Source: Ectocarpus siliculosus (taxonomy: Eukaryota; Sar; Phaeophyceae; Ectocarpales; Ectocarpaceae). From it: a DNA stretch of 43,765 bases. The notes under the pieces are model-generated. The model saw only the letters and a list, made by a program, of their open reading frames with translations. It was not told the origin of the DNA and did no database searches. Where the stretch lies: assembly GCA_000310025.1 (NCBI GenBank), contig FN649735.1, positions 811,338-855,102 on the forward strand, written 5' to 3'. The translations under genes and the position numbers were made by a program. Positions 5,001-43,480 of this stretch are shown here, piece by piece; within the stretch, counting starts at the first letter, position 1, and each line of letters starts with the position of its first letter.

Positions 5001-5343
5001 TATCCTCTCTCTGCTGTCCGAGGCGACCTCCCTGTTGTTAGAAGTGACCAGATTCTCGAAGCTTGTGGGCGTTAATGCGCAGGAACCGCGCACGCTGAAA
5101 GCTGAATGCTGAAGCGATGGTTGGATGCGTTGGATGGTTGCCGGGAGGGAGATACAAGTACGCCTTGTTCTACGGAGATCTGGGAGATCTGGAACACAGT
5201 TTTGGGAGATTGCGCATGAACACGTTCTGGTAACTGCTGAAGATTGGTTGCATAGGTAGCCTGTATCCTCTCCTACTCGTTCTGTCTCCCTCCGTTTCTT
5301 TTACTGCGGTGGTGGGCTCGCCAACAACTCCCCTTCTGCCAGC
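2100..5343. other. Unassigned 3.2 kb region
   Basis: No gene is recognised. Minus-strand frames at 2419-2664 and 2937-3137 have protein-like composition (an acidic stretch, then a Lys-rich stretch) but no start, splice context or family resemblance; they could be remnants of a decayed gene. A plus-strand frame at 3637-3945 has a hydrophobic stretch starting at the Met codon near 3694 that would pass as a signal or membrane segment, again without support. The many 60-180-codon frames at 4100-5090 occur on both strands and look random. Confidence 0.4.
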
Positions 5344-8300
5344 ATGGAAGGGAAAAAGGCTTCATGTAGGAAACTTGACGTTGATGTTGATGGTCACAAC
5401 GACGGGTTCTCTTTTCCTGTTCCGCGGTCCAGGTCCCGGCATCCTTCACGAGCCGGTATCGCCGTCCAAGACGGGGAAAATCTTCTCCGCTTGTACACCT
5501 CAGCGGGAGGAAAAGCTTGGCGAACTAGCCTAGGATGGCCAGCTGTAAGTGACTGCATGCCTAGGAGAACCAGCGCAGGGACTAGCCGATCGGTCTCACC
5601 CCGCCCCACATCGCGGAATCCTTTTGGCGAGAAGGCTGTATCCAACGACGGCGACCGACCGGCAGTTGCCGCGGCATCCGCAGCGGTAGCGGTCGGCGCG
5701 ACCCCCTCCATATCCCACCTCACACCTTGCCGCGGCGGCGGCTCCCCTGGTAATCCCTTCGCCCCAGCACTAGAGGAGGGGCAACCAAAAAGAAGAAGCC
5801 GCTCGCCTATCAACCCGTTTTCCCCGCCGATAGATGTTCTGCGAGCTGCTTCGGACGAGCTGCTAGCGCCAGGTGCCTCGCAAACTCCTTCACAATCGAC
5901 TGCTGCTGCCGCTGCTGCTGCCGCTACTGCTGGTGGCGGTACCAGGCCGAGAGCTGCAGAGATGATAGAGCCACCTCCTGACATCGATCTTTGTGCTCGA
6001 CCCGCTGAATCGCAGCAGCGAAGGGCAACGGAGAGACTACCAGCACGGCAACCCCTGCGAAGCGCGTCTCCGTCAAGCGCAGCAAGTGACACGGGTAGCT
6101 TGTTGCGACGTAGGTCCCGATCCCCTAATCCCCCACCAGCCACATCTACGCGACGGACCATGCTGGACCCACCTCGAAAGAAGGATTGGACACCTTCCGA
6201 CTCTAGAGCAGAGTGGTTCGGTGTTTCACTGGGGACAGGCGGGCGGGTGACCGAGCTAAAGCTGGTCGACAACGGCCTCGTCGGCACCCTTCCGAATGCT
6301 CTGGGTGGCCTGGAGATGTTGCGCTATCTTCATCTCGGTCGTAATACCCTATCAGGTTGGTCAGTTGGTTGGCTACCAGCAGAATTCAGCCCATGAGCCA
6401 ACCCCGGCTTTGCAGCAAGACCTCGTATCGGTGCCCAGTGATCGACAAATTCAAGACAAGGCGAAAGAATAGACATGCTTGTTCTAAAGCAAAGCTTATC
6501 ATGAACAAGCGGTTGTCTTACTCTGAAAACAAGGGACCTTCGAACGCAAGTTCAGCGATTGGCTGAAACGGGATGCGTTTCAACCCCTGTTGCCCAATCC
6601 CATCCCCTGCTTACTCTCCCCCGACCGGCCCCACTCGAAAAGGGACTATTCCAAGCGGCCTCTCGAGCCTCTGGGCCCTCGAGTGGCTCAACCTTAGCGA
6701 AAACGTTCTTACGGGACCGGTGCCGGGGTCTCTGTCCAGTCTTAGCAGATTGGTGGAGCTGAACCTCAGCGCCAACCGCCTTACTGGCCCTCTGCCGCCA
6801 GAGCTCTGCGGCATGGCGTCCCTTGTTTGTCTCCAGCTCTCGAAGAACGACCTGGAAGGCTTTCTACCGGCTGAGGTATGTGTCATTCCACCTTTGGTCT
6901 AGTTTTGTTTTACTCACGCTCGATGTACCTGTGCATATTTTTGGTCCGTTGGCCTGGAAACGCGCTAGAATCAAACTGTGCGCACACCCAAGAACTAACC
7001 CGTCTAGCTGTGGCTTACCCACAGTTCACTGGCTCCCGACCGTGAAGGCTACTCCAATTGTAGATCAAGTGTTCTTCGGTCTCCAAGTTTCGAACCACAG
7101 CCAGGGTTTTCACTCTTGTAAGGTTGTTCTATGGAGTAGTACTTCGTGGGGTGAGGTTGTTAGAATACCTGCTGGCGAAAGTAGCACACAGGGCGGCGCG
7201 CACGGAATGCACTATTGAATGCTTTCAGTTCTACGCCTCTGTCCTTCGTTATTCAGAGATGGGAAGGGCAGTCCAAACTGAAAGGCATGCATGCACGCAG
7301 AGAAGAATTGACGCCCAGTTGTTGCAGCCTCACATCATCGGAGCATCGAAGATGCGCTGCGCATACTATGGTACAGTAGTACAGTGTGAGCCGGTGATGT
7401 CCTTTCGATGTGAGGCTGTGATCATGACTACGCGCACAAAGGTTTTCTCCACCAAAGGGCAGACTTGTGGTTCGATGACGTCTGGGCCTATGGTAGGGTC
7501 CACCTAGCCCACGGATAATTACTCCCTAGGCATACAAGTTGTTTGAGCTGCATCGTTTTACATGGTAGCTCACGCCGCCCGAGCATCACTCCAAATTCTT
7601 CTGCGAAAACCCTAAAACCAATATATCCCTATATTCCAAGAAGACGGCGACTTCTGTATATCGCGACCAAGGTCTCTCACTCCCACGTGGAATTTCTCTC
7701 ATTCTTATACTCCCCACACCATCACCACAATGTCGTTGTCATCGTCGTTACCTTTCAAGATTTCAGAGCTAACCTCACTGGTAACCCTGTGTCTGGACCA
7801 CAACCGGTTTTGCGGGCCGATTCCGCGAGGGGTAGCGGGAATGAAGGCCCTGAAGGAGCTGCGGCTGGATCACAACGTTCTCACGGGTGAATGGATATCT
7901 CAACCTAGCCCATTACCGAAGCAACAATCCTGCCTTTGGTTGGTTCTTTTTACCGAATCCAAGCGGATTTGTTGGATCAGATAAACCCGCCGGAGAGGTT
8001 CTGCTGGAGGTTGGAATCGTCCTTTTACTTATTCATTTTTTCCCGAAGAACGTATCGGCTATGTGTACTCCGAGTAGCTTTGCACGTCCCCGTCGTCGCT
8101 CTTTTGAATGCCTCCTTCTTCAACCTTGTGCCGATCCGGGCTACACTATCCTCACGCGAGCGAGTTGCGGTCGAGGACAGTCAATACCAGTGGCGACAAC
8201 GTTGGTGCGTACAGAGAGCAATACCAAGCAACTGCGGAAGTATTCGACACAACCCCGTCTCAAGCGCTCAACGATGTAGGCGTTGAAATACCTCTGGTTG

Positions 8301-25464: not shown

Positions 25465-25468
25465 TTCG
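25465..25468. repeat. Target-site duplication, left copy (TTCG)
   Basis: TTCG directly precedes the left LTR and is repeated directly after the right LTR at 37317-37320. A match of four, not five, bases is seen. Confidence 0.7.
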
Positions 25469-25934
25469 TGTCACAGAGGTTATCACGCTATCGCTTAGGG
25501 TAGCTCACTCATGTGTTAGCGTAACAAGCACTGGCTAGGGTTCAATTAGTTTCTTCCATTTCATGGTCAGTTTCATCCATTTCATGGTCAGGTTCATGGT
25601 ATCTTACCATTGGATTCAAGTTGGGGGCTAGCAAAAGGGATACCGTCCCTGTGGGTCTAGCCCTGTGGGTCTAATCAAGGTGGGATTAGCAAGGGGGGTC
25701 TACCTCATGCATTGACTCACAACTGGTTGCTGCTTAGCGATGTGGGTCAAAGTTCCTCTTCCGAGATTGGCCGTGTTAACAGTGAGCGATCACCCAAAAC
25801 ACGTGTTGAGGCGGAGCTCTAGAGGGGCTCCGCCAATGATTCAGGTACACCCTGGGGTATACCCTAGCCCTCCTCAAACCATCGTGAAATGGAATGATTC
25901 TCAGTATTTAGCGCCCGTTCATGCTACCGTGACA
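25469..25934 (-). repeat. 3' LTR (left), 466 bp
   Basis: This LTR is identical in length and almost identical in sequence to 36851-37316, with TG...CA ends extended to a 6-base inverted terminal repeat (TGTCAC/GTGACA). Internally it has two near-copies of a ~21-base unit built on CCATTTCATGGTCAG (25550-25592) and a GC-rich inverted repeat GGCGGAGC...GCTCCGCC near 25811-25834 that could fold as a hairpin. Confidence 0.9.
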
Positions 25935-25943
25935 CCCCCCCAG
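25935..25943 (-). promoter_or_regulatory. Polypurine tract next to the 3' LTR
   Basis: On the element's sense strand seven G residues sit immediately before the LTR's TGTCAC. This is the expected position of the plus-strand primer. It is short and made of G only, which is unusual. Confidence 0.6.
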
Positions 25944-26245
25944 CATACATGTGTTGAAAAACACAAAATGCTAAGGAGGTAGCAGAACGTGTGCTTCTCC
26001 CTCCTCAGATCAAACCACGCCGGGAATATAGATCTGAAAAGGGAGGATGCCGCCCTCCCCCAGGTTAAACCACAAAAAAATGGATTTTAACCTCGAGAGG
26101 ACGGATGCCGGTGTGTTCGACGTCGATGTTACATTGCTGAAATCATCGACCCCGAATGACGGCCGTTAGTACTTTGGCCGCCGTATACCGGACTCCTTGA
26201 CGATGACGATCTTGGACTGAAGAAGGCGATCGTCCACTGAAGAAG

Positions 26246-26531
26246 GTGATCTTCCACTGTTGAAGACGTTCTTCCACAAACAGTCTCCACAGACCGACGA
26301 CTATGACGATGATCTTGCGTCTTGACCGACGATCACCGACTGTTGAGGACGATCTTCCGCTGTAGAAGACGATCTTGGAACTCCTCAGGTGATCTTCCAC
26401 TGTTGAAGATGTTCTTCCACCAACAGTCTTCACAGACCGACGACTATGACGACGATCTTGCATCTTGACCGACGATCACCGACTGTTGAGGACGATCTTC
26501 CGCTGTAGAAGACGATCTTGCAACTCCTCAT
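26246..26531. repeat. Tandem repeat, two copies of 143 bp
   Basis: 26246-26388 and 26389-26531 are near-identical, differing at a handful of bases. Each is itself built from shorter GACGATCTTCC-like units, so short frames here are artefacts. Confidence 0.8.
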
Positions 26532-26539
26532 TCGTGACA

Positions 26540-26562
26540 CTGCCGTCACACCCCCCCCAGCT
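26540..26562 (-). promoter_or_regulatory. Second polypurine-tract-like motif
   Basis: The sense strand reads GCTGGGGGGGGTGTGACGGC here. The true LTR edge reads GCTGGGGGGGTGTCACGGT. The similarity covers the G run and the first bases of the LTR, about 600 bp inside the element. It may be an ancestral LTR edge or a second priming site. Confidence 0.4.
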
Positions 26563-26602
26563 TCCCGCATGGAGGACGGAAGATGGCAGGCAGTGTACGA
26601 CT

Positions 26603-27394
26603 TCACGATTCTTGAGCGGTCAGCGGTGGGAGTCTGGTGGCAAGATCCATTCGACGCCTTAGCTTCCTGCGATTGAGCTCTTCCCAATCTCCGTCACTGA
26701 ACTCCACCCTCCGATACGGATCATAGGAATCGCAGACCTTCCCTCTGCTGATCACAGTATTGCTCTCTTGATCCATGAGCTCCCGTCCAACCATGGTTCC
26801 ACAGGGAAATTCCGCGAGAGCTTCGGTCCGCGTTGCTACTTCGCGTTCTCCTCGCGACGGCGGTCCCGGGGGTCGTGGTGCGATATTCACCCCGTGAAAG
26901 TCTTCCCACAGTGCATGAAAAACATCAAGTTACAGAGGCGAGAAACTGTCTCTGGCAGTGTCTTCGGTGATCAACGGAGAAGTGGTGCCATCCTGATACT
27001 TTCCTCTATACTCCCATGCCCATGCGGACGCTATTCCTCCAGCGCCCTGGACCACCCGTCTATTCACCAAAGTATACAGAGATGCCGCGACGACGGAGTC
27101 TTCAGCTAATCCTAAATCCGGCGACCATCCAAACTGACCAAACTCATCTTCAAATGGATGTCTGATGTCTTGTGGTCGAGAATGAAACGGCTTGAAGTCC
27201 GTGGCTGCCACCGTCCTCTGGCGGATTTGACGTCCATGCAGTCTTACAGTAAATCTCAACCCCTCTCGCACGACGTGCACGACTTGCGACGGTCCTGTTC
27301 GGCCACGCCTGGCAGAGCTCCGACAGCATCTCTTGTAGCACCGCTCCCATCCTCTCGACCGTTCCCTGTCCTCTAGGATGGTTGGTTGGTCCAA
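26603..27394 (-). pseudogene. Integrase C-terminal region with Tudor-like domain, interrupted
   Basis: One frame runs from about 27310 to 26603 with a single in-frame TAA at 26930-26932. Its first part (GPSQVVHVVREGLRFTVRL) resembles the SH3-like barrel that follows Gypsy integrase cores. After the stop the frame continues (LDVFHALWEDFHG) into a Tudor-like module: GTMVGRELMDQES, then YDPYRRVEFSDGDWEELNRR at 26720-26662, and ends in TGA. The DGDWEEL signature is typical of Tudor/chromo-like tails that some Gypsy elements carry, where they may read histone marks to direct insertion; that role here is inferred. The join to the integrase core is out of frame, and roughly 100 residues of the usual core-to-tail region appear to be missing. 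Confidence 0.7.
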
Positions 27395-28500
27395 AATCGA
27401 GGGATATTTTCAGCCAACGGTACAGGTGTTCCATGATCGCCGAGGTGTTTTCTGCTCCCGGATCACAGCGCACTGATATGGGCAGTCCGAAGGTGGGGAT
27501 GAGCTCCAGCAATTTCTTACTGACCCCCAACGTTTCCTTCGTGGGAAGCGGAAAAGCGAAGAGGAACTTGGTTGCTCGATTCACTATCACCAGCAAGTAC
27601 CTGTTGCCCCTGTTCGATGTCAACTTCATGTCCAGAATGTCCATCTCCAAGACTTCCCATGGACGTAAGAACCGTGCCGTTTGCTCCACTGTCTTTTTCC
27701 GCATACGGCATCGACATGACAACACGCAGTCTCGCACATCTTTCTTCAGTGATGGTCAATGGTACTTGTCCTCCACAATGATAATAGTGCGAGCTATCCC
27801 CGGATGTCCAAATGTGCCATGTGCCAGGGCCAGTACTGCAGACACCAGATTTCGAGGTAGAGCTACAACATGTGCCGCTCCTCTCGGCGCGAACCACAGT
27901 AGACCTTGATCGTCCAGGATATAGTCCGCCTGCTCTCCTTCGCCTCGCTCCAAATTGTCCCGGATGGGCTTCAACCTCAAGTCATCCTGTTGGGCCTTTT
28001 TCAGTTGGTCACCGTCTCGTAGAACACGCTCCATGTTTTCCAACTGCTCAGAATGTCCCCGGCATAGAGGGAAATCGTTGTCCGGCCGTTCTAACCTTGG
28101 TTGTGATTTCTCGTGGTCGGACCTCGATGGTGTTGTAGGAGAGCTCTCCATGGACACTGATCGCCCCTTGTGTTTTGGCACCCCGGTCTCGTTCTCTGAA
28201 GAGGTGGTCGGTTTCACGATGTTGGATGGAGTGGGTGTCGGCTGTGCCGGCTGTCGTGCTCGCCGAGCCGCACTCCGAGTCTCCGCCGGGATCACCTTAA
28301 AACGTGTACGGTCGACGTGACGGTCGACTGCATCTCCCCGAGTCACCGCTGCCGCTGTCTCATCGTCCGGATACAAGCTGGCCAAGTCGATGAGCAGGTC
28401 GTCGTCTACTCGTGTGATGTCACCTGTCTCTCCGTTCTTTGTACCATCCATTCTACGCTTCGGCCTTCCTTTCAGTTGTAGGAGATTCAAAACTTCTCTC
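27150..28500 (-). pseudogene. Integrase (HHCC zinc finger and DD35E core), one in-frame stop
   Basis: This is in the same frame as the upstream ORF starting at 28613. The zinc-binding part reads HGTFGHPGIARTIIIVEDKYH, continuing after the stop to CVLSCRC. The frame is broken only by TGA at 27756-27758, exactly where the conserved Trp (TGG) after the Tyr is expected. The core has the first Asp in LEMDILDM (27641), the second in VRCDPGAENT (27464) and the Glu in GQGTVERMG (27356), with 35 residues between the last two. After SELCQAWPNRT the frame loses similarity. The enzyme would join element DNA to the genome; this copy cannot make it without readthrough or help in trans. Confidence 0.85.
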
Positions 28501-29362
28501 AACATTGGCGCTAATGTGTGCTCTTGCATCACTCGAGCTACATCGCATCTTCTTAGAGTTGGTGGTACCTCGTAGTTGGTCTGGTTGGTGGTTAGCTTCA
28601 CATAATCTCCCATGATAGCACTTGCGCGACCTGCAACGACCCTGCGTCATTGGGGTGTGCCGTAAAAGCTGTTGGTAGGGGTTTACGACCCATGATGTGT
28701 TCCCTCGTAACCGTCACCACCGGCGTCTCAAACGAAAATATCTCCTTGTGCTGACGTCCCCTTTTCAAGAAGAAGCATCCTTGTCTTCTCAAAAAGGCAC
28801 CCACCGTGGGTGTGGACGGTGCGGTTCTCTCCACATTCTTGTTCCACTGAGCTAGTTTAGCTGTCAAGTTAGAATCCCCGCTCTTCTTGACTGCCACCAC
28901 AAACACTCTCCGTTTTGTTGTGGGTATCCCGACTGCTGTCGCTGACAACGACGCAGTTGCCGTTTCACAGCCTGCCAGGTGCAGTTCTGGTTGAAGAATA
29001 TTTTTCCATCTCTCTGATCCTGCAAAGCCTACTGGACTCTCCATTACCAGGATCTGGATTGGGGACGACACGAAAATCTGCACAATGTTGTCTGCAGTTC
29101 GCCCTGTCCTCGCTCCTTCGTCTTGACCATCCTCAATGGCGCACGCATTGCCAATGAGAATTTCGGGTTTGTACTCGAGGATCGTTTGGCGTGTGGCGGG
29201 TTCTAAAGGCTGACGAATCAATGTTGCATCACCGGCTCCTCCGTTGACTCTGATGCATTCCATGGTCTTCCAATCCGAGTCAACCACACATTTTACGTCC
29301 AACATACCCTCCATGGCTTGTAATGCTCCACCTGCTCCTCGACCGAGAACAGCCGCCCTCGG
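28500..29362 (-). pseudogene. Cytosine-5 DNA methyltransferase-like domain inside pol
   Basis: The frame is continuous with RNase H (ORF from 30025 to 28598). Motif I-like AAVLGRGAGGALQAMEG starts at residue 223. Then come VVDSDWKTMECIRVNGG (cofactor-binding acidic strand and the r.N position), EILIGNACAIEDG with Cys295 at the motif IV cysteine, GARTGRTADN, ILVMESPVGF at the motif VI place (ENV expected), and GIPTTKRRVFVVAVKK at motifs VII-VIII (GvPQxRxR). A short target-recognition-like stretch follows. The domain tail (AQVLSW, then YEVPPTLRRCDVARVM) continues in another frame from 28613, so a frameshift at about 28600 splits it. Family members transfer methyl groups from S-adenosylmethionine to cytosine. 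Several catalytic positions deviate, so activity is doubtful. Capture of such domains by retrotransposons is known from other eukaryotes; in this order it is notable. Confidence 0.8.
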
Positions 29363-29733
29363 CTGTCTTGGTGTAAAGAGATCTTGTGCTTGTTGATACG
29401 CCCCTACGTACTCCTCGTCCCTCGGTGTCAGCGCATCAGGTGTGATCTGCAATGCATAGAACACACTGAGATTCTCCACGTCTCCATCGTCAACCTCTGT
29501 TGGCCCCAGGTCAGCTAAGCAGATTCCATCGAGTTTGATGTCTTCCTGGCGGAGCGTGGCTAACTTTGGCTGTGAGTCACTGGTCTCCTCGTCTTCCGCA
29601 AGTTGTGATTGTGCCATCCTTTGTAGAAGAACCCCTTCCAACACTGGTCCCGCTGGCCCACTCCCTCTTACTTCGTCAACTCCATCACCCGGCAACGTGG
29701 TGTCAACATCGGGTTCGTCTGAACCTTTCCGCC

Positions 29734-30098
29734 GAAGTCTAGAAAGAGCGTCTGGAACGACATGGTCGGTTCCCCTTCTCCACTTCAAGACCATATCATA
29801 CGCCATCATCTTTAGCGCCCAACGGTTCATCTTTGACGATAGGTTCTGGCTGGTGAAGAGCCACATCAAGGCCGCACAGTCCGTGATGAGAGTGAACTGA
29901 CGGTGCTGAAGGTAAATCTTGGAATGGTCTAGTGCATACAACACTCCCCGAACCTCCCGATCGTTTGACGATAGTTGTTTTTTCTGACCTGGACAACCTC
30001 TTACTGGCGTATCCGACCGGAGCATCTCTGTTCTCCACCTGCTGTGTCAGGACTGACCCTGCCGCGATCAAGCTTCGATGGTGCTGGTCGAGTTCCAT
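29734..30098 (-). pseudogene. RNase H domain of the retrotransposon, frameshifted
   Basis: The first part (AAGSVLTQQ, then PVGYASKRLSRSEK) is in the frame starting at 30098. The rest (QLSSNDREVRGVLYAL, FTLITDCAALMWLF, HVVPDALSRL) is in the frame of 30025. The switch lies at a run of six A on the sense strand (29978-29983), a likely indel site. The catalytic Glu (REVRG), Asp (LITD) and final Asp (VPDALSR) are present; the first Asp, normally just before GAVLxQ, is lost in the deletion upstream. The linker to the methyltransferase (about residues 100-220) is acidic and unassigned. Confidence 0.85.
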
Positions 30099-30135
30099 CC
30101 CTTCCGACCATGATCCCTAAGAACTCAAGGCGCCT
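30040..30135 (-). pseudogene. Reverse transcriptase remnant
   Basis: In a third frame the sense strand reads KSRRLEFLGIMVGRDGTRPA, the conserved end of the Gypsy polymerase palm (vxFLGxxVSxxG). It is followed directly by RNase H sequence. The YxDD-containing palm, fingers, thumb and connection are absent, so two deletions flank this scrap. Confidence 0.7.
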
Positions 30136-30638
30136 CGATTTGACTCGAGTAGACGTCCCGTGGGGTCCCGAAAGGCCGTCTTACGTTTGTCTGTCTCCTC
30201 AAGTTCCAGTTGATGATATGCGCTGCCAGGTACGTTGAATTCTTGGTCAACATAGATGGGCCATGTCAACGTTCCATCATCCTCCCACGTTGTTGACTCT
30301 AATTCCAGATCCTCCATTGCCAGCACTTCAAACGGCGGTGATTGTTGAACGTCTTCCTCTGCTTGATCTTCCACCATGTAGAACGCTCGAGTTGGTTCGT
30401 TCTCCTCTTTTGGTCTCCTATGTAGTCCACGTAGTGTCTTAGCTTTCACTCTCGAAGGCTCCATGTATGGCAGCAGTGGTGTTCGATCAGATGTGGGTGA
30501 TGGTCGAAACCACCCAGACCCCGAGCCTCCAAAGTCTAGTGTGCTGTTGTATTGACGCATGAACGCACTGCCTAGAATGAGACCTACAGGAAGTCCCTCC
30601 CCGACTCTCACGCTCACACCGAAAATCTCATCAATCAA
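30117..30638 (-). pseudogene. Aspartic protease C-terminal half and linker
   Basis: The frame starts near the gag remnant's end. It contains LPVGLILGSAFMRQYNSTLDF, the second half of a retropepsin (ILGxxFLxxxxxxLDF). The active-site DTG/DSG loop is missing, apparently deleted at the gag junction near 30640. An acidic linker follows (EDQAEEDVQQSP; EDLELESTTWEDDG), and the frame stops at 30117 where reverse transcriptase sequence begins in another frame. Confidence 0.7.
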
Positions 30639-32895
30639 GGGAGTGCTCCCCTCCTGACCATGTGAGGCGAGTCCAGCTCATCTCGGATGGTGGGCATGTT
30701 GTCGAGCTGCTGTCGGTAGCGTTCTCTGATCGTGAGCAATTGAGCCTTGTGTGGCATCCTGTCTCCCCATTGAGGAAAGCACAACTGCAACGCTTTCTCC
30801 TCCAAGATCTGAAGATCACGCATAGAGAATAGTTGCCAGAAGTAACCTTCTTCTGTGGCGTACGGGGCCTCCGGGTCAAGGTTGTGAGGCTCGGAAATAC
30901 TGCACCATTCGCACTTGCGCGCCAACCACGACGCCTTGAGTCCCAACACTATACCGTTGAATGCTGCGATGGCTGCCCGACGTGTAGCATGTTTCCGTGC
31001 TTCTTCTTCTGTCATGAGCCTCAGGAGATCCAGTGCCGTCACCTCCGTTGTCCACCCCTCACATCATGGACTAGCATTTCTTGGCCCCGCGATGCCTGGT
31101 ACTCCGTGACGACTGCCATTTCCTGTGGCAGCACCCCAAGGAGCATTTCCACTCGCGCCGGAGTGAAATCATCGGGCTCAGGATGAACCACCTGATGTCC
31201 CGAAGCTGGATGAGTAGCCATGCGATCAGGCGGAAACTTCGCTACCGCACCGGACTCCATGGCGTACTCCTTTGTGACGACGTCTTGGAAGACCAGCGGA
31301 TCATATCGAGCGTGTGTCCTTCGTGTTGATCTGCAACGGGGGTCCTTCAAAACCTCCTTCTCCCGTACCTTGGACGATACGTTTCTTGATACCTTCCCAC
31401 ACTTGGCGACACTGTTTAGGGTCCTCCATGTTGACCGCATACACCGAGGAGAAGGGTGACGGTCCATAGTATCCTCCGTTGTATCCATATCCGTGAGGCG
31501 CAGACCCCACACCTCCCCCTTCTCCATGTTGTAGAGGCGAGAAGCCATGACCTGGACCCCCAGAATGCTGCTGTCCCTCCCGGATCGGGGAATGGCTGAG
31601 GTTGTTGATGAAACCCTCCCTGCGACGGGAAGCCTCCCCCGCTATAGGGCATGTGGGGACGTCCTCCGTCAACGTTCGCATGGGACGAAAACTGTCCGTG
31701 GGACGGTGTCAGCTGATGAGGAACGCCCCATGAACGGTGAAAGCCTCCTTGGTGCTGAAGAGGTCCTCCCGCCTGTGGGTAGTGTGCTGGAAATCCGTCC
31801 TGATGAGGAGATGGTCCTCCCTGTTGCGGAGGTGTCGGCAGAAGTGGCTCTCCTGGCTGATGAAGATGTTGAGGTGGTTGTCCTCCATCATTCTGAAGAA
31901 ACTGCCCTCCTTGCTGTTGGAGTTGCGAAGGTGGAGGTCCTCCCGGTGGAGGAGGCGGTCCTCCCTGCGGAAAAGGAGGCAGTCCTCCCTGTTCTTGGGA
32001 TTGTTGGGGCAGTAGTCCCTCAGGCGTCTGGGAAGGCGGACCTCCGGGCGGCGGCGGGGGCGATCCTCCCTGTTGTTGAGATTGCTGAGGAGGCTGTCCT
32101 CCAGGCGGTGGAGGAAGCGGGTGGGGACGTCCTCCGTCAACGTTCGCATGGGACGAAAACTGTCCGTGGGACGGTGTCAGCTGATGAGGAACGCCCCATG
32201 AACGGTGAAAGCCTCCTTGGTGCTGAAGAGGTCCTCCCGCCTGTGGGTAGTGTGCTGGAAATCCGCCCTGATGAGGAGATGGTCCTCCCTGTTGCGGAGG
32301 TGTCGGCAGAAGTGGCTCTCCTGGCTGATGAAGATGTTGAGGTGGTTGTCCTCCATCATTCTGAAGAAACTGCCCTCCTTGCTGTTGGAGTTGCGAAGGT
32401 GGAGGTCTTCCCGGTGGAGGAGGCGGTCCTCCCTGCGGAAAAGGAGGCAGTCCTCCCTGTTCTTGGGATTGTTGGGGCAGTAGTCCCTCAGGCGTCTGGG
32501 AAGGCGGACCTCCGGGCGGCGGCGGGGGCGATCCTCCCTGTTGTTGAGATTGCTGAGGAGGCTGTCCTCCAGGCGGTGGAGGGAAGCGGTCCTCCCTGCT
32601 GTTGAGGTTGCTGAGGAGGCGGTCCTCCAGGCCGTAGAGGAAGCTGTCCTCCCGGCTGTTGAAGTTGCTGAAAAGACGGTCCTCCCTGCTGGTGGAGTTG
32701 CTGAGGAGGCGGTCCTCCAGGCGGTGGAAGGGGCGGCCCTCCCGGCAGTGGAAGGGGCGGTCCTCCCTGCTGGTGGAGTTGCTGAGGGGGCGGTCCCCTA
32801 GGCTGCGGAGGGGGCGGCCCTCCCTGCGGGTACTGCTGCTGGTTGTGCATGTTGTCTTTGCCATTGAGAAGTGAACCGTAATCACAAATCATCAC
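30635..32895 (-). pseudogene. Gag-like Pro/Gln/Gly-rich protein, frameshifted
   Basis: The likely start is the Met-rich beginning at 32895-32850 (ATG before HNQQQYPQGG). The protein opens with several hundred residues of PPQQ, GGPP and QQGG repeats, then has a more ordered part: YAVNMEDPKQCRQVWEGIKK, then DPLVFQDVVTKEYAMESG, then LLRLMTEEEARKHATRRAA and RERYRQQLDNMPTIRDELD. These pieces sit in different frames, with switches near 32580, 31600, 31320 and 31045. At 32580 one extra base in a G run, relative to the second copy of the internal repeat, explains the switch. No zinc knuckle is seen beyond a single CEWC, and none remains before the protease scrap. It would form the particle core in an intact element. 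Confidence 0.65.
31654..32589. repeat. In-frame 468-bp tandem duplication in gag
   Basis: 31654-32121 and 32122-32589 are almost identical (two substitutions and one inserted G seen). 468 is divisible by three, so the unit adds 156 residues of low-complexity Gag. Confidence 0.9.
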
Positions 32896-33396
32896 TCCGC
32901 AGCATCGCTGGTGTTGGTATCACAACCTTCAGACGTTGAGAATGAGTGATAGACCTGTGTTCACGATCTCCATAATACAGAGTCTTTGTCGTTCAATATC
33001 GTAAAAGTAGAGATGAATGTCTGCGGTGCCAACATACCCCTGTATGCCCATGTGATGCTGGGCTTCTTCACGTGAGCTGTCGTGGGAAGGTCAACACTGA
33101 CGACACGCGGTGATTGTGGTGACCACTAGCATTAAAACCGGGTACAACGTCGGTGCGGACATGTACGTGTGCCTTGTGATATCACAGAGAACCTAAAGCG
33201 TGAAGGAAATCCCCTCAAGGTCATATCCATCGCAGAACCAAGGTGCTTGGTATGATTCATTATGCATTCTCTGACATGATAAAGACCGTTGTAACCAACA
33301 ACATGACCCACGCATTAACAACCATCCTCCAAAATGTATCGGCCAACATCGTGCTCCTATGATCCTTCCAGGACGTGCGTTATTCCAAGAACTTCC

Positions 33397-34220
33397 TCAA
33401 ATACATACCAGCAATATGCCATAGGCGGTTGATGTGTATGATACATTGGCGTTCATGAGTGTGATAAGCACGGCATCCTCAAAAACGATATAAACCACAT
33501 CCCTCAACATTGTGGACACTATACAACATTCCCACACAATCCAGTCCAACGTGTCGCATTTTTCCTCTTTGACATCCACGCTGAAGATAGGCTTACTGCT
33601 TACTAGGACACCGTACTGTTCATAGGTGCTCCTTTCACCGGCCCCGCAGAGCATCCCCAACCACCCGGGCGGCATCCCTCTCGTCGAAGTATACTTGATA
33701 GGCATGTGAAGCCCACGACACCGACCGAGTCCTTTGTTTCTTCCGAGGCTCCTGTCCCTGGGCCGTTATACTCGTATTTGCGTGACCTCGTGGGAGGTAC
33801 GGGACCGTCAATAGCAATGTCTGTCACACGAGTAGCAAAGCATTTCCGCCCTCTTTTAAGAGCAGTCAACAAAATCCGTCTGTCTTCCTCATCATCATCC
33901 GTGTTCGCTATGTTTCCCCCCTCATCAGAAGGTGCCAGCATCTTCGGATGTAGTGGCATGTGGTTGAAGGTGACGGTAAAGGTCGTGGTGTCGTGCTGCG
34001 GGTTTCCGTCATAATGTTTCCGAATGACTCTGCCTTCTACGGTCGTCATGGTTCGGGTGTACGAGGTGTCGGTGATGGAATCCATGCGTTGGCACCGGAC
34101 ACAGAAATAATGGATCGGCAGGGAAGTATGGTAACGACACAGGTGTGGTGATGAGAATATGCCACCCATGGCCGAGGCAAGTAATGGAAGATCGTAATGC
34201 AGCACCCAGTGTAACGACAT
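33397..34220 (-). pseudogene. Extra ORF upstream of gag, broken by frameshifts
   Basis: Three overlapping minus-strand frames (34220-33603, 33817-33635, 33705-33397) read as one protein with two frame switches. Protein-like stretches include TTFTVTFNHMPLHPKML, an acidic NTDDDEEDRR, a basic LKRGRKCFATRVTD, YFDERDAARVVGDALRG, and a hydrophobic C-terminal part (STMLRDVVYIVFEDAV). It lies inside the element leader in the sense direction, about 500 bp before gag. I recognise no domain. It may be an extra element gene or a captured host exon. Confidence 0.4.
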
Positions 34221-34720
34221 AGTGGTACTATTTAGGTATACATTTTAATATCGTCCTGGATAATAACAGTCGACTGGTAGCTCTCACTACTCGCTCTATT
34301 ATGCAGTAGTCGACGTTTTAGAATGTGCTACACAACACACTAATGTGCTGTCATCACGATCGATCCATCCCCTGTTCGGACATCTGCAAAATATGTCCCA
34401 AGAACCACGCATAATTACAACAGAAGGTGTTGAAACGGCATCAAAGACACGGTTGGTTGAAGATACCGCGTTGGTGGAAAATTATGCCACCTGTGGCCGA
34501 GACAAGTCATAGAAGATCGTAGTGCAGCACCCAGTGTAACGACACAGCAGTAATATGCTACTTTTTATCATCCTCCTGGTCAAGAACAGTCAACTTTTTA
34601 GCTCTTTCACTCTATTATACAGTAGTAGCAGTCGACCTGTTTAGAATATGCTACACAACACACTAAGGTGCTGTAATCACGATCGGTCCATCCCCTGTTC
34701 GGACATTAGCGTAATATTTT
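34158..34720. repeat. Diverged tandem repeat, unit about 323 bp
   Basis: Blocks at about 34158-34395 and 34484-34715 share ordered matches, such as CAGCACCCAGTGTAACGACA, GCTACACAACACACTAA and CCATCCCCTGTTCGGACAT, with substitutions and small indels. They are noncoding and older than the gag duplication. Confidence 0.7.
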
Positions 34721-36226
34721 CCAAAGATTTCATGAAATACATGTCTTCCGATGGATGCCTAGTATATATATGCGAAAAACAACCCAACGATGAGCAGCAG
34801 CCTTAACTGGCGACCACGTCACTGTTTGTTGTCGATGCGACACGGTTAATTGACTCCGATTCATGGGGAAGATATGCGACAGACAGCCGTCGAGTGGTAG
34901 AAAGATACAACTATTGATGTTTATCGTAGCGCGTCAGTGCATTAGGTACCTTCATCACTACACAAGTATCTTTTCCGCTCTTCCTATACCATATACTTTA
35001 CACACAACAAGCACCATGGAAATTAATCTACATAATTATTTAGCATTCCACTATTATTATTATGATCGATCCATTTCCAGACGGTGTGTGTCAGCATATG
35101 ATTCCCCATGCATGGTTGAACGATAACAACAGCGTCGCGTCAATGTTGTTTTTGCATGATTGAGGAGAGTACCCATCAGCAGCATGGCCATATCTGCCAG
35201 ATGTAGCATAGCTCTCCGAGCGAATCACAGTCACATACCAAAGATTTCTGTAATTGCGGGTAAGGCACGTGAAAGACTGCTGCGTCAGCTGTACATCAGC
35301 TGCGGCCAGGGCGAGTGAAGCGGCTGCTGCATGACGATTTCAGAGAGGTACAGCGGAGAATTGCATGCATACAACGTGTGTGTGCGGAGATTTGATAAAC
35401 ACCAGCACAACCTTGCCAACCCTCGCACCGCATAGTGTCACGTGCATCAAAACCAGCACGCTGTAAATTGGTTAGGAACACACTCCAACCCACAAGAAAA
35501 TAGGGAAAACGTAGCACTGCCAATGACATAAACAGTGGGTTGGTGGCGTATCCACCCTCGGTATGCGGAGATAGCGGAAAAGGGCGGGGTAAAAAAAAAA
35601 AATGTACGAAATCTACGAACCGCTGTGGTAGAGCATCAATCAAGAGGTGATGACAACCAACTGGCATAACGGCGCGGGTATAGAACAGATTGCCTACAGG
35701 AACTCGCAGCCATATGGATGGATGAAAGCCTCTGCCGGTTGTACCAGGTGAAGAGCATGTGTGTATGGCGCAATGGCCCCGAAAAAACGTTGTGTCCAGA
35801 GCGCAATATGCGGTGCATTAGCATTTTGTGAGGAAAGTGCGTGTACAGCAGTCCATGTCATCTGGTGTGGTCCCCATCAGCACACCTGTCAGCTGATACG
35901 ATACCTTGTGACCATCACTCGGCAGCCAACAGCTGTTATACCTCCCTCCGTCCAGGACAAGCGCTGGTAGCCATGGTGCGTGCATGAGACAACTATCTCA
36001 TGTTGTGTGCAGAACTCAAGCAACCCAGCAGCACAGCAAAGTAAAGCACGACAATTCGCAATTTTTCTGACGTACACCCGGTGAGCAGTTTTACACTGGA
36101 ATAAAAGGTAGTGCCAGCTCTAAAAAAAAATCCATCATCTTGATTTTAGAACGGGAGTCAAAAAGATTTTTTTCTTGCATGAATCTGGTTGTAGATTCGA
36201 GTCCGCTGTGTTACGTTCTGAAAGAT
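34721..36226 (-). other. Noncoding leader of the retrotransposon
   Basis: No coding feature is supported. It lies between the 5' LTR region and the upstream ORF in the element's sense direction. Such a long leader (about 3.9 kb from LTR to gag) is unusual. Confidence 0.5.
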
Positions 36227-36933
36227 CGTAATCCCCCCCCCACGGGGAACGGTACCATGCACAGGGTGCAGCTCACCAGTAGTGTCTTCGATACCGATAT
36301 GAGGGGCCCCTGTCATCGAAGACTAGGTCTGTTGAAGTCATGTATCCGAGGTGATAAGTGATTGAATTTTGCACGATTGCGAGCGAGTCCAACCTCTGCT
36401 GTAAAAAAGATCGTCAGTTGAAGCAAGCAGCAACTGAATCAGAAGCAAACGCCCCTGCGTGTAAACAAAACTAAAGTAATCCCTACTCCTCCACCATGTC
36501 ACAGAGGTTATCACGCTATCGCTTAGGGTAGCTCACTCATGTGTTAGCGTAACAAGCACTGGCTAGGGTTCAATTAGTTCGTAATCCCCCCCCCCACGGG
36601 GAACGGTACCATGCACAGGGTGCAGCTCACCAGTAGTGTCTTCGATACCGATATGAGGGGCCCCTGTCATCGAAGACTAGGTCTGTTGAAGTCATGTATC
36701 CGAGGTGATAAGTGATTGAATTTTGCACAATTGCGAGCGAGTCCAACCTCTGCTGTAAAAAAGATCGTCAGTTGAAGCAAGCAGCAACTGAATCAGAAGC
36801 AAACGCCCCTGCGTGTAAACAAAACTAAAGTAATCCCTACTCCTCCACCATGTCACAGAGGTTATCACGCTATCGCTTAGGGTAGCTCACTCATGTGTTA
36901 GCGTAACAAGCACTGGCTAGGGTTCAATTAGTT
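36227..36933. repeat. Tandem duplication of 354 bp spanning primer site and LTR edge
   Basis: 36227-36579 and 36580-36933 are near-identical, differing in the length of a C run and a base or two. Each includes leader sequence, the primer-binding-like site and the first 83 bases of the LTR (plus-strand order). The duplicated LTR piece lies at 36497-36579. Confidence 0.9.
36839..36850 (-). promoter_or_regulatory. Primer-binding-like site next to the 5' LTR
   Basis: On the sense strand TGGTGGAGGAGT follows the LTR end directly. The TGG start matches the CCA end of a tRNA; the expected primer would end ACTCCTCCACCA. I cannot name the tRNA. A second copy sits at 36485-36496 in the tandem duplication. 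Confidence 0.6.
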
Positions 36934-37316
36934 TCTTCCATTTCATGGTCAGTTTCATCCATTTCATGGTCAGGTTCATGGTATCTTACCATTGGATTCA
37001 AGTTGGGGGCTAGCAAAAGGGATACCGTCCCTGTGGGTCTAGCCCTGTGGGTCTAATCAAGGTGGGATTAGCAAGGGGGGTCTACCTCATGCATTGACTC
37101 ACAACTGGTTGCTGCTTAGCGATGTGGGTCAAAGTTCCTCTTCCGAGATTGGCCGTGTTAACAGTGAGCGATCACCCAAAACACGTGTTGAGGCGGAGCT
37201 CTAGAGGGGCTCCGCCAATGATTCAGGTACACCCTAGGGTATACCCTAGCCCTCCTCAAACCATCGTGAAATGGAATGATTCTCAGTATTTAGCGCCCGT
37301 TCATGCTACCGTGACA
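36851..37316 (-). repeat. 5' LTR (right), 466 bp
   Basis: This matches 25469-25934 over its whole length, with one substitution seen (CCTAGGG here, CCTGGGG in the left copy). It begins TGTCAC and ends GTGACA, followed by TTCG. Confidence 0.9.
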
Positions 37317-37320
37317 TTCG
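37317..37320. repeat. Target-site duplication, right copy (TTCG)
   Basis: This is the same four bases as 25465-25468. Confidence 0.7.
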
Positions 37321-41479: not shown

Positions 41480-42156
41480 TGGTTGTAGATGTTGGTGCAG
41501 TTGGGAAATCATTGTAGTCGCTACTGGATACTGGATATCATGCAGATTGAGTGCTCTCTGCTGTTTAGGTCGAACAGCAGCTACACCATGTTGTTGGTTA
41601 CTGTTTTGATTCGTTGCTGTTGGTAGTCGTGAGGATTGGCATGGACAAATATTGAGATGCACACCGTGGGCAACACCACGCTCTCGATCATCACTGAAAT
41701 ACCCCAGACATGATAGTGGACACATCGGGTACACGAAGATGTGAATGTGCGTGTTGTCCAATGAAATGTGATGAATCGTGGTTAGTAGCGTGAGGCCCAG
41801 AGGAAACAACGAGCTCTTGATGTTGAAAAACCTATTGAAAAATGTGCTTGGGCCGCCGTGCCCCCCCTTTCGTCCCCCCACCTCCTCGAAAGCCGTGAGT
41901 GGCTGTGTTTGTTCCAATTTTACTGTTTTTATGTTCAACCATTTGTTGTTCAGGATATGACTACAATGAGAAGCGCACTTACTCAGCGATAACTTTTTGG
42001 TCACACCTCTGCTTATACCGCATTACCACGGTGTATCTACCGCAAACTTTATTTCCCATGCGCGAATACCGTGCACGAATCAAACACCCCTCCAACCGTT
42101 CAGCCTCCTCTACCGGTCTGGTCTTCCTAATTTACCATTCGTGTGTGCATGGTCCT
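41480..42156. other. Unassigned stretch before the kinase palindrome
   Basis: It contains a plus-strand patch near 41787-41893 with coding-like composition but no clear exon borders. Confidence 0.3.
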
Positions 42157-42300
42157 CTACGATGCGGCCTGCGGCCTGTGCACGTCTATGGCAGCGGCAA
42201 GGTCCACCGCGACACCAAGCCGGCAGACATCATCGTGATGATGAACATTTAGATTGGCAGCGCGACAGTCAAGGTAGCCGACGTTGGGCTTACGTGCAGT
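42157..42300 (+). pseudogene. Protein kinase fragment, catalytic loop, plus-strand copy
   Basis: The frame reads VHVYGSGKVHRDTKPADIIV, the HRDxKPxN catalytic loop with Lys kept but the Asn replaced by Asp. A TAG follows after MMNI. In frame beyond it is ATVKVADVGLTC, the strand before DFG with DVG in place of DFG. The upstream match to the other copy (YDAAC) needs a one-base shift. No other kinase lobe is found nearby, so this is a relic. Confidence 0.65.
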
Positions 42301-42754
42301 GAGTGGTGATGCGCAATAGTAGACATTCGACACCATAAAGAGTTCAAGTTTAGGCAGCAGCAGCAAGTACCTCATCAATTACGCGCAATGGATGCCCAGA
42401 TGCCTCACGAAACATTGCAGAAACCCGGCTGCTGTCTCCATTGCTAGCCTAGTCGAAAGGCCTTGTTCCTACTCCCAGCTCCCCTAGCAATGGTCTGCAT
42501 CGACATGGCGAGTGAAACAAAGGTCACGCCCTTTGTTTCACACACCATGTCGACGCAGACCACCGCTACGGGGGGGTGGCGTTAGGAAGAAGGTTTGGGA
42601 CTAGGCTAGCAATGGAGACCACAGCCGTGTTTCTGCAAGGTTTCGTGCGTCGTCTGAGCATCGATTGCGTGTAGTTGATGAAGTACATGCTGCTGCGGCC
42701 AAACCTTGGACGCTTGATGGTGTCGAAAATACACTATTGGGCAACAGCACTCAC

Positions 42755-42899
42755 CGCACGTGAGGCCAGAGTCGGCCACGTTGCCCGTCACGCTGCGATC
42801 CTACCTGTCCAGCATGGCGACGATGTTCGCGGGCTTGATGTCTCCGTGGACGATGCCTTTGTCATGGACGTGCGCCAGGTCGCAGGCCGCATCGTAAGG
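42755..42899 (-). pseudogene. Protein kinase fragment, catalytic loop, minus-strand copy
   Basis: The frame reads YDAACDLAHVHDKGIVHGDI, then KPANIVAML: a good catalytic loop with HGD in place of HRD and the Lys and Asn kept. A TAG follows LDR. In frame after it comes DRSVTGNVADSGLTC, where DFG is DSG. The stop is at the same codon as in the plus-strand copy. A GTGAGT follows as in a donor. Confidence 0.7.
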
Positions 42900-43480
42900 G
42901 ATCCTGCGCAAACGAAGACCTGGAGGCTGAATGAACGCTGAGAGAATTACCGTAAACGTCGGAGTTTCCCCCCCCTAGTAGAGCGTTCCCCTCCCCCCAT
43001 TACCTTTTCGGCCTGGAAGCATGGTTTCGTTGATTTAGCCCCGGGGTAGATCGTTTTCGACCAAAACAAGTTCCCCCGGGTATTTCAATTTCCTCCCGGG
43101 GTACCAGTATTCCCACGAGTTCCCCGCGAGGGGGATGTACTTCTCTAATTTTCTGAGTCGATTTTGTTGCATCGCGGAGCACAAAAAGCATGATATGGGT
43201 CGGAAAATTCATTTGTTTGCAGATCTGCGCTTAGAGCGAGATTTAGGTGTGCCGTTTGTCACTGGAAGGCGGGCCCTTCCTCTTCTTGGAATCACTTGCG
43301 GGACGAGACAAACTCCCTCAGCTGCTGTCCTCCTTGCAGTCTTATTTCTCTTCGCCTTCGTTGCTCTTACGTTCCTCCTCCCTCTGCTCGTTGAACGCTT
43401 GCTCGTAAACCTTATCCAACTCAGTTTCGCCACTCTCTGTGTGTTTGGTGTGTGGACCATCATTATTTTGCACAACCCCC
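42900..43480. other. Unassigned region near the window end
   Basis: A minus-strand frame near 43342-43440 has a charged helix (LDKVYEQAFNEQREEERK) that could be a terminal exon, without further support. 43040-43130 is rich in CCCGG-type runs. Confidence 0.3.

Follow-up and report, generated by a model that had tools for sequence, protein, structure and literature searches.

A diverged C5-methyltransferase-type domain in the Pol region of a Ty3/Gypsy retrotransposon from a probable brown-algal host

The closest described counterpart of the locus analyzed here is KnitGypsy-Dnmt3 of Klebsormidium nitens, a Gypsy element with a Dnmt3-type domain in its Pol protein (de Mendoza 2018, PMC5890265). 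The same article describes SymbioDIRS-Dnmt3 and SymbioLINE-Dnmt from Symbiodinium; its authors considered that CG depletion in the latter might reflect methylation of RNA or cDNA, without dismissing other causes. We studied a stretch of 43,765 nucleotides (contig FN649735.1, positions 811,338 to 855,102; hereafter the window), which contains on its minus strand, at 25469-37316, a Ty3/Gypsy retrotransposon with long terminal repeats (LTRs) whose pol region carries an extra domain of the C5-methyltransferase fold between RNase H and integrase. In both KnitGypsy-Dnmt3 and the window element a C5-methyltransferase domain lies within the Pol of a Gypsy LTR retrotransposon. They differ, as far as published descriptions allow a comparison, in that the domain of KnitGypsy-Dnmt3 is Dnmt3-related, has conserved key residues and resides in a host with 5-methylcytosine (5mC) (PMC5890265), whereas the window element has NAC at motif IV, and DNMT1, DNMT3 and DNMT5 are reportedly missing from its probable host lineage. 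The Symbiodinium elements are likewise retrotransposons encoding C5-methyltransferases, but they belong to the DIRS and LINE types rather than to LTR Gypsy elements, and their key residues are reported to be conserved (PMC5890265). Domain capture by Gypsy is known already, and what is new is the host lineage, the changes in the active site and the depth of divergence.

Captured domains are also on record for Ectocarpus, the genus of the nearest named relatives of the window element. Its Gypsy families include some with chromodomain, Tudor or NADAR domains, the Tudor-bearing one being Gypsy-10_Ec32, and a DNA transposon combines ParB with an N4/N6-methyltransferase (PMC12477816). The window element resembles these Gypsy families in having a captured domain in Pol and a possible Tudor-like end, but the passages of that article on these families do not mention a C5-methyltransferase domain. 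A review treats methylase-bearing retrotransposons in general and reports DAM/DCM-encoding ones in Stramenopiles, where the passages concerned do not mention any brown alga by name (PMC6338049). In the open-licence literature, supplements aside, we found no report of C5-methyltransferase capture in brown-algal retrotransposons. According to one survey, DNMT1, DNMT3 and DNMT5 are completely absent across brown algae (PMC13076208), and a review lists a DNMT2 homologue alone for Ectocarpus (PMC3145265). In Saccharina, about 1.4% of the cytosines are methylated, a trace level found mostly in the CHH context and credited to DNMT2 (PMC6916402).

Relatives, referred to below by their P numbers, were collected in three homolog searches. 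The domain query returned 6 proteins, a profile search (best 7993 candidates scored) 8, of which 4 were new, and a search with the RNase H part (24 candidates of 0.55-1.75 times the query length) 11, of which 8 were new. Two proteins from the third search, P0011 and P0018, bear the name Ectocarpus sp. CCAP 1310/34, and P0011 is 88% identical to the RNase H part of the window over 87% of that query part. This sequence identity supports a brown alga as the host, as the initial annotation had proposed. In P0011 and P0013 a reverse transcriptase (RT) domain (PF00078) precedes RNase H. Linker 1 or its start follows RNase H in ten of the 11 proteins from the third search (assessed partly by eye), while P0017 terminates five residues past RNase H. 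In five of the 11 (P0001, P0002, P0013, P0014 and P0018) the RNase H frame continues into the methyltransferase domain; none of the 11, which are length-limited fragments assessed partly by eye, was seen running into integrase. Copies lacking the domain, named beforehand as evidence that would speak against a capture, were not seen among these fragments. In P0003, a 609-residue open frame passes through the whole domain with 52% identity to the window, and several other relatives are represented by frameshifted or deleted fragments. No relative was detected by tblastn of viral contigs with P0003, P0004 and the window open reading frame, or by tblastn of genome contigs with the latter.

The fold was assessed with structure models of the window copy and of the P0003 segment. 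For each model, all of the 50 matches listed were C5-methyltransferases, at identities of about 9-20%; structure prediction was among the checks suggested in the initial annotation. No DNMT3 structure was among the 50 matches listed per search, with which a DNMT3 origin is still compatible. Alignment of the family with 55 C5-methyltransferases from viral contigs (hhalign) scored 46.2 in local and 34.5 in global mode, and the best scores among 200 column shuffles, 31.4 and 14.9, were both lower. Note that this reference set was picked by its PC and ENV motifs, so that motif counts within it are circular and were excluded as evidence. P0004 matched PF00145 with 23.2 bits against a curated cut-off of 22, while P0003 (10.9-13 bits) stayed below it. 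No PF00145 match was obtained for the window, P0001, P0002, P0005-P0011, P0013, P0014 and P0018, several of which lack the domain region. The window domain alone had no match in Pfam or among PDB sequences, and the family profile matched no PDB chain. A phmmer search of PDB with P0004 gave a weak and mixed list headed by a phytase (0.022), followed by DNMT2 as the sole methyltransferase (0.19-0.2), below the unrelated phytase, and by aldolases (1). The profile search envisaged at the outset thus gave a match above the cut-off for P0004 and none for the window domain by itself. Judged from these comparisons, the resemblance to C5-methyltransferases exceeds chance. Together with the fold, the profile match and the order of RNase H, linker and domain recurring in other copies, this supports the original claim that a Ty3/Gypsy pol has captured a domain of the C5-methyltransferase type.

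Motif columns were read from an alignment (A5) of the window and its relatives with 12 rows. The hhalign pairing places the cysteine of GNAC opposite that of PC, the glutamate opposite that of ENV, and GVPTxKRR opposite GVPQxRxR. NAC occurs at motif IV in eight of the ten rows with letters on both sides, and the motif VI glutamate in ten of the 11 rows reaching that motif, P0006 being the row without it. This glutamate is followed by SP, SA, AP, NP, YP or RT and never by NV, the RT pair coming from the P0009 row, which is apparently out of frame. At motif VIII, KRR is found in the window, P0001, P0003, P0004 and P0005 and ERR in P0006, while P0002, P0008 and P0009 are out of frame there. DNMT2, a tRNA C5-methyltransferase and the one enzyme of this kind reported for brown algae in the articles cited, shares the fold with the window domain but differs in having ENV at motif VI and PPC at motif IV, both of which the window domain lacks. 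Since nucleophile and glutamate are kept and PC, ENV and QxRxR are not, we name the domain a diverged C5-methyltransferase relative rather than a DNMT. The motifs had been described initially as those of C5-methyltransferases, which is supported at the level of fold and family and for the two catalytic positions, but not in the sense of a canonical DNMT.

Pairwise comparison of copies shows the domain to be more conserved than linker 1 in 6/7 pairs and its end more conserved than linker 2 in all four pairs available, and less conserved than RNase H. The LTRs have a CpG observed/expected ratio of 0.53, and each of 67 non-overlapping windows of 466 bp from the flanks has a higher value; this is no more than a hint, because the LTR counts as one sequence. 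The internal region has a mean of 0.85 versus 0.95 (p 0.0075).

We give about even credence to the explanation that a diverged C5-methyltransferase in the Pol of a brown-algal Ty3/Gypsy element has been kept by selection and probably acts on the element's nucleic acid. Homology, fold, position and recurrence of the domain and the conservation of cysteine and glutamate rest on observation; catalysis, substrate, selection and role are inferred. Retained between RNase H and integrase, the domain would act in the particle or the pre-integration complex, where it would flip a cytosine out for attack on the base by the cysteine of GNAC, assisted by the glutamate of ME(S/A/N)P. C5 would then be methylated from S-adenosylmethionine (SAM), and the mark might label or protect the cDNA (or RNA) ahead of integration. 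The initial annotation had suggested, as a possible function, marking of the element's own DNA or an influence on silencing. In its most far-reaching form, the proposal would be that brown algae, regarded as devoid of DNA cytosine methyltransferases, still carry an active one of a new, diverged class in their retrotransposons, working with a non-canonical NAC site on cDNA or RNA, and that such copies could be an overlooked source of the trace 5mC in Saccharina; this we regard as unlikely.

Several observations weigh against the explanation that we favor. The canonical PC dipeptide was not encountered, its proline being replaced by alanine in all eight cysteine-bearing rows, and the Asn-Val of ENV and the Gln/Arg of motif VIII are altered as well; with these changes, the enzyme may have little activity left or none. 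The motif IV stretch is missing from P0018 (Ectocarpus) and unreadable in P0006, both rows being gapped there, and P0003 and P0008 are nearly identical around motifs IV and VI, so that the eight NAC rows are not independent. The quality of both structure models is poor past residue 182-185 or so, i.e. in the C-terminal third, the hhalign probability is 79% and not near 100, and no PF00145 match was obtained for P0014, in which the first half of the domain is present. The resemblance of the domain end to motif X scored 15.1, and at least 5 of 200 shuffles reached 16.4-20.8. Domain and linker are equally conserved (0.66 each) between P0001 and P0002. Depletion of CpG in the internal region is mild and not significant once tandem repeats are excluded (p 0.07). 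Finally, 5mC is reported to be negligible in Ectocarpus (PMC12477816) and undetected there by HPLC (PMC3145265).

The substitutions PC to AC, ENV to ESP or EAP and QxRxR to TxKRR would also fit a pseudo-methyltransferase, a module whose fold has been retained to bind nucleic acid (or SAM) in support of RT, RNase H or integrase but which does not methylate. The reported lack of DNMT1, 3 and 5 in brown algae (PMC13076208) and the failure of HPLC to detect 5mC in Ectocarpus (PMC3145265) point in the same direction. A pure scaffold, however, need not retain nucleophile and glutamate amid varying neighbors, and we take this possibility seriously while rating it short of an even one. Frameshifts and deletions in the window copy and in several fragments could instead mark a functionless, decaying relic carried by a recent burst. 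The uninterrupted frame of P0003 and the mostly higher conservation of the domain than of the linkers argue against decay, and we give it little credence.

The remaining alternatives concern the origin of the domain. The window element and KnitGypsy-Dnmt3 both belong to Gypsy and carry a DNMT-type domain in their Pol, as would be expected if a DNMT3-type domain were common to both as the product of one capture. The charophyte domain is described as Dnmt3-related with its key residues kept (PMC5890265), while motifs IV and VI are changed in the window, and, judged by these residues, a shared capture is very improbable. That the domain belongs to another SAM-dependent Rossmann enzyme, or resembles C5-methyltransferases by chance, would account for the window domain and the family profile remaining unmatched in the sequence searches, but the lists of structures, the match of P0004 to PF00145 and the comparison with shuffles all indicate C5-methyltransferases and leave this idea hardly credible.

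The presence of a C5-methyltransferase fold in the Pol of a family represented in Ectocarpus suggests that DNMT searches can miss diverged, transposon-borne relatives, since the domain was found despite the reported absence of DNMT1, DNMT3 and DNMT5. It adds a further case of C5-methyltransferase capture by Gypsy, here in hosts from a lineage that lacks the usual methylation system. If 5mC were found on these elements, it would have few alternative makers.

The element is bounded by LTRs and a short target duplication and has RT remnants, RNase H and a downstream PF00665 integrase in this order, in agreement with Metaviridae (Ty3/Gypsy). Its coding order is gag-like, protease-like, RT remnants, RNase H, linker 1, extra domain, linker 2 and integrase (Table 1), the gag-like region being repeat-rich by eye. 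The initial annotation had described a single open frame from RNase H into the domain down to 28500. Such a frame is open on the minus strand from 30046 to 28601 and includes the motif I-, IV-, VI- and VIII-like stretches, but 28500-28597 lies outside it because of a stop at 28598-28600. A frameshift near 28607 places the final approximately 51 domain residues in another frame (28607-28455); P0003, P0005 and P0006 have a single frame across the matching point. The PF00078 match of P0011 spans residues 132-292, of which tblastn recovers only parts ahead of RNase H in the window (residues 181-214 and 286-305 of P0011), and the RT of the window copy is thus not intact. With frame breaks in RNase H and the extra domain and a stop in integrase, the window copy is defective. 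The insertion is young, because the LTRs differ at one site, and the copy was therefore probably mobilized by proteins of other copies, or its defects are newer than the insertion. The protease-like segment had no match in a Pfam search, and comparison of the Tudor-like pol end with PDB sequences returned just UreE (E >1). An Rfam scan of the window gave nothing at gathering score, and a tRNA scan of the window found none.

Table 1 Features of the retrotransposon in the window (positions as in the window)
Feature	Position	Strand	Basis and remarks
Target-site duplication TTCG, left copy	25465..25468	.	left flank ends ..CCCTTCG
3' LTR	25469..25934	-	repeat comparison with 5' LTR
Putative polypurine tract, G7	25935..25941	-	abuts 3' LTR; by eye
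Possible Tudor-like segment, pol end (26606-26929)	26657..26728	-	PF21743 E 0.1, below cut-off, weak
Integrase core	27375..27665	-	PF00665 E 1.2e-8, above cut-off
Integrase zinc-binding, H2C2-like, then in-frame stop	27762..27857	-	PF17921 E 0.0081, below cut-off
Linker 2	27960..28454	-	less conserved: 33-49% vs 57-74% for C-terminal end of domain
C5-methyltransferase-fold domain	28455..29368	-	28604-29368 in one frame, 28455-28607 in another
Motif VIII equivalent GIPTTKRR	28907..28930	-	hhalign alignment
Motif VI equivalent MESP, Glu of ENV	29033..29044	-	hhalign alignment
Motif IV equivalent GNAC, catalytic Cys position	29141..29152	-	hhalign pairs Cys with PC Cys
Motif I equivalent LGRGAGG	29327..29347	-	hhalign alignment
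Linker 1, 124 residues, present in relatives too	29363..29734	-	alignment with relatives
RNase H, two frames, break near 29980; ends VPDALSRL at 29735	29735..30113	-	PF17917 E 1.3e-11; tblastn with P0011/P0013
RT remnants	30070..30227	-	tblastn with P0011: residues 181-214 and 286-305 only
Protease-like segment running into RT remnant	30120..30677	-	open reading frame; protease label by eye; RT part by tblastn with P0011
Putative tRNA primer-binding site	36832..36850	-	TGG start immediately after 5' LTR; by eye, without tRNA matching
5' LTR	36851..37316	-	466 bp, TGTCAC...GTGACA, 1 mismatch vs other LTR
Target-site duplication TTCG, right copy	37317..37320	.	right flank starts TTCGAATG

Further repeats were noted in the element. 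Next to the 5' LTR, at 36223-36933, is a direct repeat (about 355 bp, 99%) that takes in 83 bp of the LTR. A tandem duplication of 468 bp (99%) lies at 31653-32589 in the Pro/Gln/Gly-rich gag-like region, and a 143-bp tandem repeat (96%) at 26244-26530 is situated between the pol end and the 3' LTR. Outside the element, positions 42138-42916 form an imperfect palindrome (about 780 bp) that shares 78% identity with its reverse complement, and leucine-rich-repeat-like exons recognized by eye point to a probable host gene at 5260-8000 on the plus strand.
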